Translations under genes and position numbers: made by a program | In this document: positions 3,294 to 14,105 of the stretch, piece after piece | Layout of the letters: every line of letters starts with the position of its first letter | Numbering within the stretch: the stretch's first letter is position 1 | Source of the DNA: Candidatus Methanoperedens sp. | GTDB taxonomy: Archaea > Halobacteriota > Methanosarcinia > Methanosarcinales > Methanoperedenaceae | Assembly (NCBI GenBank): GCA_027460525.1 | Contig: JAPZAS010000016.1 | Span: 1-64,000 of the forward strand | DNA length: 64,000 bases | Direction: 5' to 3' | The notes under the pieces: model-generated | Seen by the model: only the letters and a program-made list of their open reading frames with translations | What the model was told of the DNA's origin: nothing | Database searches by the model: none

Positions 3294-4403
3294 TTAATGA
3301 CCTGAGAAACCTGTTATCGCACTCTTCTTGAACGTAGCAAACCTATCCTCAAGTATCGCTTCCCTCGCGCCCTTTACTATGGACTGGATAAAGGCCAGGT
3401 TGTGGATGGAGGCAAGCCTCAATGCAAGCAGTTCCGATTCCTTGAAAAGGTGATGCAGATACGCCCTTGTATAGTTCCTGCATGTATAACATACGCATTC
3501 CCCGTCAAGCGGCGCAAAATCAAGAGCGAATTTAGCTCTTGCAACGTCCACATTCCCCTTCGAGGTCATCAAAGTCCCGTGCCTTGCATTCCTCGTCGGG
3601 AAGGCGCTGTCGAAAATATCGATACCTGATTCTATTGCAGAAAAAAGTTCAAGAGGCGAGCCCACGCCCATGAGGTAGCGCGGCTTATCCTCAGGCACCA
3701 GTGGAAGGCTGTATTTCAATACCTCGTTCATTGTTTCCTTTGGCTCGCCGATTGAAAGCCCGCCAATTCCGTAGCCGTCGAACTCCATCTCGATAAGCGC
3801 CTCTGCACACTTCCTGCGAAGCTCTGCGAAGACGCCGCCCTGCAGTATTGCAAAAAAAAGCTGACCTTCATTTTTCTCTATGGTTTTCGATCTTTTCGCC
3901 CATTGTATCGTTCTCTCAACCGATGCCTCGACAGCGGAATACTCACTTCCATAGGCAGGGCATTCATCCAGTATCATGGCAACGTCGCTTCCCAGAATTT
4001 TCTGGTTTTCAATGCACATTTCAGGCGTATAGGAGTATTTCTTCCCATCACGCGGGTTTTTGTAGGTAATCCCCTCATCCGCGATCTTGAAGGGAAAATC
4101 CTTACGAATCATCTGGAAACCCCCGCTGTCCGTGAATATCACACGTTCCCAGTTCATGAATTCATGCAAACCCCCCGCTTTCTGGATTACCTCCATCCCT
4201 GGTGAAAGAAACAGATGAAAAGCATTGCTGATGAGCGCCTGTGTTCCCATATCATGCAGCTCTTCGGGCGTCAGCGTCTTCACGGTAGCTTTTGTGGCAA
4301 CAGGCATGAATGCCGGGGTGTCCATGCTCCCGTGGTTTGTCGCCAGCCTGCCCGCTCTTGCACCTGTATTTTTATCTGTGTGAATTAATTCGTACATATC
4401 CAT
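3294..4403 (-). CDS. tgt: bacterial-type tRNA-guanine transglycosylase
   Basis: This 369-residue enzyme has the length and motifs of bacterial Tgt, which inserts preQ1 at tRNA position 34. It is not the longer archaeal TgtA, which carries extra C-terminal domains and modifies position 15. Visible residues are the general-base region TDSGGFQ (Asp92), the substrate loop GGLSIGE (214-220), the nucleophile Asp265 in [13 protein letters not shown], and the zinc ligands Cys303, Cys305, Cys308 and His334. There is no PUA-type extension. It lies 166 bp downstream of queA on the same strand. With queA and QueH (13.6 kb) it makes a queuosine route, unexpected in an archaeon. Confidence 0.88.
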
Positions 4404-4569
4404 CCCGATTTAATTCACCGCAAAGGCGCTGAGGACGCAAAGATTAACGCCAGTTCAAATGAACTCAAACGTGTTCGTATCGAGTTCGTACCATTTCGTT
4501 GTTTACCTCTGCGTTCTTTGCGACTCTGCGGTGAGAAGTCATTACCGAAATGCTCTCTGGACATAAATA
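4404..4569. repeat. intergenic pair of inverted ACCGCAAAG-type repeats
   Basis: Between tgt and queA lie two copies, in opposite orientation, of a short dispersed repeat: TCACCGCAAAGGCGC...GACGCAAAG at about 4415-4442, and its counterpart at about 4506-4534 reading CTCTGCGTTCTTTGCGAC...GCGGTGA. Related copies occur near 24750, 27645 and 54810. The pair can fold into a long imperfect hairpin, which might affect expression between the two genes. Confidence 0.7.
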
Positions 4570-5574
4570 TTACCTAAAAATCAGCATCGCATCGCCGAAG
4601 CTGTAAAACCTGTATGAATGTGATATGGCGCTACTATAAGCCTCCATCAGTTTTTCCCTGCCCGCAAATGCGCTCACAAGCATTAAAAGCGTGGATTTTG
4701 GGAGATGGAAGTTGGTTATTATCCCCTCGATTCCTGAGCGAAAACTGTAAGGCGGATAGATGAATAGCTGGCTGAATCCTTCCTTTGCGGCAATTTTCCC
4801 GTCCACGCACGAGCTTTCAAGCGCCTTTACAGTGGTTGTCCCTGCAGCAATCAGCTTTCCTTTCGTTTCATTGATTATGTCTGCGCTTTCGGCGCTGATG
4901 GAAAAATATTCTGGCTCCATTTTGTGAGCTTCAATGTCCTGGGTTTTAACAGGAGTGAATGTCCCGATGCCCACATGAAGAGTAATGTAAGCAATGTTGA
5001 CCCCTTTGTTCATTATCTCATTCAATAAGTTATTTGTAAAATGAAGACCTGCTGTGGGCGCTGCTATCGAGCCTTTTTCCCTGGAATATACCGTCTGGTA
5101 GCGGTTCCTGTCCTCAAGCTTTTTCTTGATATACGGCGGAAGGGGCGCGTCCCCGATTTTTTCAAGAATATCGTTGAGGTTTCCGTTGCAGTTAAACTCA
5201 ACCAGATATCTATTGGTGTACTCTTTCTTTCTGACTTCAAGGATTGTGGCTTCAAGTTCGCCGAAATAAAGTCTTGCGCCTTCATGGATATTCTTGCCCC
5301 TTATCAAACACTCGTACCCAGCATTGCTTTTCGAAACCACGAGCGCCTCGACTTTGCCTCCTGTAGCTTTTTTACCTGAGAGTTTTGCCGGAATAACTCC
5401 TGAATCGTTGAGCACAAGGGTATCCCCTTCTTCAAAATAACCTATGATATCAGAAAAACATCGATGCTCGATATTTTTTCCCAGTACCATCAATCTCGAG
5501 GAATCCCTGGGTTCTAAGGGGGACTGTGCAATCAGTTCTTTCGGAAGATAATAATCAAAATCGCAAAGTTTCAT
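4570..5574 (-). CDS. queA: S-adenosylmethionine:tRNA ribosyltransferase-isomerase
   Basis: QueA transfers and isomerises the ribosyl group of SAM onto preQ1-tRNA to make epoxyqueuosine. The 334-residue product has the diagnostic start MKLCDFDYYLPKELIAQ, the SRLMVL segment, the TAGLHFT motif (ptAGLHF), THVGIGTF-like TLHVGIGTF and the C-terminal NFHLPKSTLLMLVSAF block. Length is normal for the family. It follows the SAM hydrolase gene by 23 bp and precedes tgt on the minus strand, suggesting one transcription unit. QueA is a bacterial enzyme, so horizontal acquisition is the simplest explanation. Confidence 0.95.
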   Translation of the reverse strand: MKLCDFDYYLPKELIAQSPLEPRDSSRLMVLGKNIEHRCFSDIIGYFEEGDTLVLNDSGVIPAKLSGKKATGGKVEALVVSKSNAGYECLIRGKNIHEGARLYFGELEATILEVRKKEYTNRYLVEFNCNGNLNDILEKIGDAPLPPYIKKKLEDRNRYQTVYSREKGSIAAPTAGLHFTNNLLNEIMNKGVNIAYITLHVGIGTFTPVKTQDIEAHKMEPEYFSISAESADIINETKGKLIAAGTTTVKALESSCVDGKIAAKEGFSQLFIYPPYSFRSGIEGIITNFHLPKSTLLMLVSAFAGREKLMEAYSSAISHSYRFYSFGDAMLIFR

Positions 5575-12690: not shown

Positions 12691-13569
12691 ATCTTCTTTT
12701 TTAAAGGTGAAACTGCCTTTTACATCAACATGTGCAGGGAGTTCCCCGAATCTTGCCTTGAGAATCAGCTCCGCTATTTCAGTCTCAAGAACTTTTGCTA
12801 TCCCGATGATGGACGTCGTGGGTCTCGGGTTTACGTCCACAACATACGGCTTGTCCCCGAGCACGATATCCACGCCTGCATATCCCCGGCATCCCAGGAC
12901 TTTTGCCGTCCTTTTAGCAACGTCGATAATCTCGTCATTCCTGTCGCAGTAGTACGGAACTATCCCGCCTTTATAAGAAATCCTGTCTCCAATTTCTATC
13001 AGCTGCCTGTTGACCGTGAGTGGAAGCTGTGTTCTGCCTGTGATTATACTGGCGCTTATATGCTCCCCTTCAATAAACCGCGTGGCGATGAAACCTTCTT
13101 TTAGCACACCGCTATGGCTTTTGTGTATTCCTTCAGAAGCGCAGCCGTATCTTGGTTTTATCACGAAATCTCCCTTGTATTCCTTTTCAACAGTCTCTGG
13201 AACGGGGATCTTTTCCTGTTCAAGTGCGCGGGTGCATTTGAGTTTATCAGCGCAGAGGCGCACGGAATAAGAGGGGCATCCCAGGTTTTCGGTGTTTTCT
13301 TCTACAATCTCTGTCAGGTCTCCCAGCATCTCATCAGGTGCAATAACCATGGCGGCATCGCACTCTTTTGATAATTTTTCAATGGAAGCCTCAAACCCTG
13401 CCGTAATCACGGCTTTTCCTGTGCCGAGCCGCTCACCTGCGGTCGGGTAAAATACCTCGTGACCGCATGAAGCAAAACTGCGAACAAGCACGTTGAGCAT
13501 GGCTCTTCCTTCAAGCATGTATCCGTCCATGCCTTTGCCAACTGCATATTCTGCGACCAGTATTCTCAT
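12676..13569 (-). CDS. mfnD: ATP-grasp ligase, probable tyramine-L-glutamate ligase
   Basis: This 297-residue ATP-grasp protein matches COG1821. MfnD of that group joins tyramine to glutamate in methanofuran synthesis. The N-terminus MRILVAEYAVG, the central VIKPRYGCASEG nucleotide-binding region and the C-terminal DIVLGDKPYVVDVNPRPTTS metal-binding region are visible, and the length fits MfnD. Methanofuran is expected in a methanogen-lineage organism. It overlaps the upstream queH by four bases, but a shared pathway is not obvious. A related ATP-grasp ligase with another substrate cannot be excluded. Confidence 0.7.
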   Translation of the reverse strand: MRILVAEYAVGKGMDGYMLEGRAMLNVLVRSFASCGHEVFYPTAGERLGTGKAVITAGFEASIEKLSKECDAAMVIAPDEMLGDLTEIVEENTENLGCPSYSVRLCADKLKCTRALEQEKIPVPETVEKEYKGDFVIKPRYGCASEGIHKSHSGVLKEGFIATRFIEGEHISASIITGRTQLPLTVNRQLIEIGDRISYKGGIVPYYCDRNDEIIDVAKRTAKVLGCRGYAGVDIVLGDKPYVVDVNPRPTTSIIGIAKVLETEIAELILKARFGELPAHVDVKGSFTFKKEDLFCL

Positions 13570-14105
13570 GGGAGCACACTGCCTTTTTTAAGGTACCGCT
13601 CTTTTTCGCTGAAGATGCAGCCGCAGTATTTCTGCATGTAAAGTCCGAGAGCTCTTGCAATCTCCCGGGATTCCCTGTATCCTTCCCTGAAATCCTCGTA
13701 ATAGAACTCGATGCCGTATTCATCCGCGGTTTTTTTCCCTATTTTTGCAAGCATCTCATGCTTCTGGTAGGGCGAGATGAGGAGGGTGGTTGTGAAGGCG
13801 TCAAATCCTAATTGAGCAGCGGTTTTTGCAGCTTCGGCGAGCCTGTAAGTATAGCAGAATCTACACCGCTCATCAGATGCAAGCGCACCGCGAAGATAGT
13901 TCTCCATATCATAATTTTTATAGATCACCTTTGTTGCTTTCATCTCTGCATACGTTTCAAGTGAGCCAAGCCTGTTTTTATATTCTGAATAAGGATGAAT
14001 GTTCGGGTTATAAAAAAGAGCCGTTATGTCATGCCCCTCCTCAAGCAATCGCTTATGGGGGTATGTGAAGCATGGGGCGCAGCAGACATGGACGAGGATT
14101 TGCAT
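13566..14105 (-). CDS. queH: epoxyqueuosine reductase QueH (DUF208)
   Basis: QueH reduces epoxyqueuosine to queuosine in tRNA, a non-homologous replacement for QueG. The 179-residue product has the signature CCAPC (Cys8, Cys9, Cys12) at the N-terminus, CRFC (Cys81, Cys84) and the terminal KYCGCIFSE (Cys161, Cys163). These are the Fe-S and redox cysteines known in the family. It shares a four-base overlap with the ATP-grasp gene. With queA and tgt 8-9 kb away it completes the three tRNA-dependent steps of queuosine synthesis. Confidence 0.88.
   Translation of the reverse strand: MQILVHVCCAPCFTYPHKRLLEEGHDITALFYNPNIHPYSEYKNRLGSLETYAEMKATKVIYKNYDMENYLRGALASDERCRFCYTYRLAEAAKTAAQLGFDAFTTTLLISPYQKHEMLAKIGKKTADEYGIEFYYEDFREGYRESREIARALGLYMQKYCGCIFSEKERYLKKGSVLP

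Follow-up and report, generated by a model that had tools for sequence, protein, structure and literature searches.

The genome of a Candidatus Methanoperedens archaeon carries intact genes of the late bacterial queuosine (Q) pathway beside the genes for archaeosine (G+), and related families keep the same set. These families (f1, f3 and f4 of one order) are here called ANME-2-type archaea, a term that we infer, as we do the family names. We hypothesize that the bacterial-type Tgt would exchange G34 of GUN tRNAs for preQ1, that QueA would add epoxycyclopentane from SAM, and that QueH would reduce epoxyqueuosine to queuosine; in parallel, TgtA, ArcS and RaSEA would make archaeosine at position 15 from preQ0. 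The preQ1 required by Tgt may be salvaged from neighbouring bacteria via an importer of an unrecognised family. Of this scheme, we infer the activities of the enzymes, the presence of Q in the tRNA and the salvage step; what we observe are the genes, their residues and distribution, and the lack of matches to QueF, QPTR and QueT. Taken without salvage, a late Q pathway in these archaea appears highly probable; for the statement as a whole, salvage included, we consider the chances about even.

Queuosine genes in an archaeal window

The window analysed here is a stretch of 64,000 nucleotides from a Ca. Methanoperedens-type assembly (2.44 Mb, 99.5% complete). An earlier note on this DNA had read three of its open reading frames as tgt, queA and queH with intact catalytic residues, in an otherwise archaeal gene context and with RaSEA nearby. 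Scores against curated profiles and alignments agree with this reading, and each of the three is an intact, full-length member of its family (Table 1). Methanogenesis marker 2, a stand-alone GMP synthase C-terminal subunit and RaSEA, which lies just upstream of queH, make up the archaeal context.

Table 1. Positions in the window, strand and supporting evidence of the Q genes and two associated genes
Gene	Product	Positions	Strand	Evidence
tgt	Bacterial-type tRNA-guanine(34) transglycosylase	3294..4403	-	TIGR00430, 470.6 bits (cut-off 306.75); residues
queA	tRNA preQ1(34) SAM ribosyltransferase-isomerase	4570..5574	-	NF001140, 413.7 bits (cut-off 324), over residues 1-333; PDB 1yy3/1vky
	SAM hydroxide adenosyltransferase (DUF62 type)	5598..6386	-	PF01887/PF20257; near queA in 8/34 compared loci
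queH	Epoxyqueuosine reductase, non-orthologous to QueG	13566..14105	-	PF02677, full-length match, 208 bits; alignment to 7lc5
RaSEA	Radical SAM enzyme, archaeosine (G+15), outside the Q route	14378..15403	-	TIGR01210, 405.8 bits (cut-off 212)

The genes tgt and queA form a pair, as in E. coli, and are adjacent in nearly all loci compared. With queH 8 kb off there is no single three-gene cluster; FtsZ, an MBL-fold protein, a low-GC helicase and other genes lie between. The helicase (superfamily 1, positions 8512-11121, about 35% GC), which has a nuclease-like C-terminal end and resembles MkoA of the Mokosh defence system, looks like a later insertion. The SAM hydroxide adenosyltransferase is tied to Q by neighbourhood only. 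Near queA, several other loci (L058-L060, L095, L096) encode a membrane metalloprotease that resembles site-2 proteases and has CBS domains; they come from family f3, a Hydrothermarchaeote and a genome of the Methanoperedenaceae. Elsewhere in the window, positions 27841-30676 encode a short prokaryotic Argonaute, classed by PADLOC as pAgo class I (431 bits), together with a partner gene of the Aga REase type, and two similar paralogous proteins, for which no family match is named, are encoded 3.5 kb apart at 57215-58672 and 62108-63172.

The near-invariant residues of QueA are kept, and the cysteine motifs CC, CxxC and CGC of QueH are intact when aligned to the solved QueH structure. The description of Tgt as a 369-residue bacterial-type enzyme devoid of archaeal PUA domains is borne out: TGT is its single Pfam domain, and its score against the archaeal TgtA profile (162.5 bits) remains below the cut-off of 350, in contrast to that for the bacterial-type family. 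It retains the catalytic Asp pair, Gln203 and Cys158 (Z. mobilis numbering), the zinc ligands CxCxxC...H and the nucleophile motif FDS..PTR. At position 233, every one of the 21 archaeal rows of the alignment has Ile, whereas all 42 bacterial rows sampled have Val. Eukaryotic queuine-inserting enzymes have Val at 158 and Gly at 233 (PMC3660597); since Cys158 and the bulky Ile233 are unlike this pair, a preQ1-type pocket is predicted for the archaeal enzyme. Other residues occur at position 158 elsewhere: a Woesearchaeote with queG, tgt and queA in a row (L109:4045-7302) has a Tgt with Val158 like the queuine-inserting enzymes, and the Tgt of an unclassified archaeon (L171; Tgt at L104) has Leu.

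The uniform Ile233, together with the lack of a known preQ1 supply (see below), could also be taken to mean that Tgt, QueA and QueH work on a substrate different from canonical Q, or that the pathway halts early, e.g. at preQ1, so that no Q is made. We regard this as unlikely. The Tgt of Thermotoga maritima likewise has Ile at 233 in our alignment, and the successive enzymes are kept together, with intact catalytic residues, in 20 of 20 ANME-2-type genomes checked, every genome with QueH also having QueA.

Distribution and descent of the gene set

By identity (74-77%), the named proteins closest to QueA come from Candidatus Methanoperedens and other members of its family, and the window is assigned to that group on this basis. 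QueA is present in 33 of the 34 genomes of the host family, which are separate assemblies, one of them with the gene on a 709-kb contig. Across the phylum it was found in 10 of 393 genomes, all within the ANME-2-type families and none in the sister family f2, which is taken to be Methanosarcinaceae. A single-contig genome of 1.9 Mb from the same order carries QueA as well.

This distribution rules out contamination or misassembly. The earlier note had named a bacterial-archaeal misassembly as what would overturn its reading, and the genes are indeed bacterial-type by family; that they stem from bacterial contamination or a chimeric contig nevertheless has a negligible probability, given their recurrence in separate assemblies including the 709-kb contig, their presence in the single-contig genome, the archaeal gene context and the fact that the archaeal Tgts form a clade of their own.

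In a tree with the nearest bacterial relatives, this clade has full support (SH-aLRT 100). The archaeal QueA sequences also form a single clade, with weaker support than for Tgt (93 in the quick tree, 60/95 in the careful tree), next to which stand Atribacteria and Nitrospirota. Among the archaea from other orders in the Tgt and QueA trees are Hydrothermarchaeota, Thermoplasmatota and one Woesearchaeote. The QueH tree, with too few bacterial rows and long branches that meet, was dropped as evidence of origin. Because the bacterial rows are the best matches to the query, the trees do not fix the direction of transfer or the donor. Overall, the Q set looks old in these families, vertically kept, and part of a Q-gene lineage common to some other archaea.

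Archaeosine and the source of preQ1

Besides RaSEA, the host genome has TgtA, QueC and ArcS (717.8 bits). From these sequences, archaeosine synthesis looks complete within the four genes searched, and the presence of all four implies that the host should also make archaeosine. The possible targets of the Q enzymes are in place in that tRNA-Asn, tRNA-Asp and tRNA-His each have U33-G34-U35; tRNA-Tyr had no Rfam match at E<=10 in this assembly, which counts against our hypothesis, though an intron or an assembly gap is possible. A preQ1 riboswitch near the Q genes had no Rfam match either.

It had been proposed that G+15 and Q34 are made from one preQ0 pool, and a search of the same genome for QueF was suggested. 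A search of the host genome for QueF (PF14489) gave no match at E<=1, and the 19 relatives that complete the set of 20 ANME-2-type genomes lack it as a host gene. Consequently no known enzyme joins preQ0 to Q here, and the claim of a single pool is unsupported. What stands from that earlier account is that a genuine archaeon has the late Q pathway of bacterial type alongside genes for archaeosine.

The only QueF match above the cut-off among the 20 genomes comes from another Methanoperedens-family assembly (L257; G010:C66:1-20000). On this contig, virus-like replication genes (clamp-, RecA- and DNA-polymerase-type) adjoin folE, queE, queC and queF, with QueF and FolE confirmed. It was rejected as a host gene on account of this virus-like setting, and the genes are read as a phage-type 7-deazaguanine cassette. 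This suggests that the virus puts 7-deazaguanines into its own DNA; its host is only putative. A second match in the same assembly and one in another genome (G005) are cross-matches of FolE.

Known importers are likewise missing. QPTR (PF02592) has no match above the cut-off in any of the 20 ANME-2-type genomes, and QueT (PF06177) none in the 14 tested. Our genome-wide importer search covered these two families; transport of preQ1 is also within the reach of the ureide permease, HlyIII and MFS families (PMC11130926). A comparison of the neighbourhoods of queA, tgt and queH across lineages yielded no shared candidate for a reductase or an importer.

Among other archaea that carry queA, some have QueF, either next to queA (L171) or elsewhere (L173), and some have QPTR; two genomes (G428, G429) have neither. 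The unclassified archaeon with the Leu158 Tgt has queF beside queA-tgt (L171:1-1743) and an MFS transporter beside queH (L187:2062-3189). Two of three genomes of family f2 tested have QPTR without QueA.

Salvage of preQ1 by an unrecognised importer is our best guess and is placed ahead of an unrecognised reductase as the most likely source. It would follow a pattern seen in other Q-gene archaea, i.e. Thermoplasmatota, where QPTR lies a few genes upstream of queA-tgt (L099, L114). Against it stands that no importer of a known Q-precursor family, among those searched, is linked to the genes; furthermore, since the host makes its own preQ0 (QueC), pure preQ1 salvage looks uneconomical.

The same late pathway might instead draw on preQ1 made from preQ0 by an unrecognised reductase unrelated to QueF, in which case G+15 and Q34 would after all share one preQ0 pool. 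This is a possibility that we hold with some doubt. The pool would be at hand, as preQ0 is made by QueC and used for G+ by TgtA, ArcS and RaSEA, and QueF is missing from all ANME-2-type host genomes, where the later enzymes are universal; the two known importers are likewise missing from the genomes tested for them. On the other hand, no candidate reductase adjoins queA, tgt or queH across lineages, and some other Q-gene archaea use an ordinary QueF.

Relation to known pathways and meaning

The trio as such has been known in archaea since 2021, when a study of DPANN protein families reported QueA, QueH and Tgt from 34 genomes of archaea, with Methanosarcinales named in its Figure 4 (PMC8204110). 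These are the same genes in overlapping taxa, and the novelty attached to them in the earlier note was overstated. The precursor gap differs in this respect: it is not discussed in the main text of that paper, where neither 'QueF' nor 'preQ1' is mentioned.

In families and residues, the enzymes correspond to those of the bacterial Q pathway (Tgt-QueA-QueH/QueG of E. coli, Firmicutes and Thermotoga). Unlike there, QueF is absent here, the host is an archaeon with archaeosine genes, and the proteins form a clade of their own. A close parallel to the gap is offered by preQ1-salvaging bacteria lacking queF (PMC5372724), which also have the late enzymes without QueF and for which preQ1 import is predicted. 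However, these bacteria lack preQ0 synthesis and their known importers are QPTR or QueT, whereas QueC is present in the archaeal host, with QPTR and QueT both absent.

We found no report or measurement of Q in ANME-type archaea in the literature searched, a body outside which most subscription journals lie. As late as 2024, a paper stated that de novo synthesis of Q is confined to bacteria (PMC11130926), yet the late Q pathway is kept by entire families of archaea that oxidise methane. Novelty at the gene level is low; what merits pursuit is the precursor gap. If Q is indeed present, each of two tRNA positions in these cells bears a 7-deazaguanine modification of its own. The preQ1 gap points to either metabolite exchange with bacteria or an undiscovered enzyme. 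Should the reductase exist, it would be a missing enzyme of deazapurine metabolism, found in these archaea, which could be located by phylogenetic profiling.
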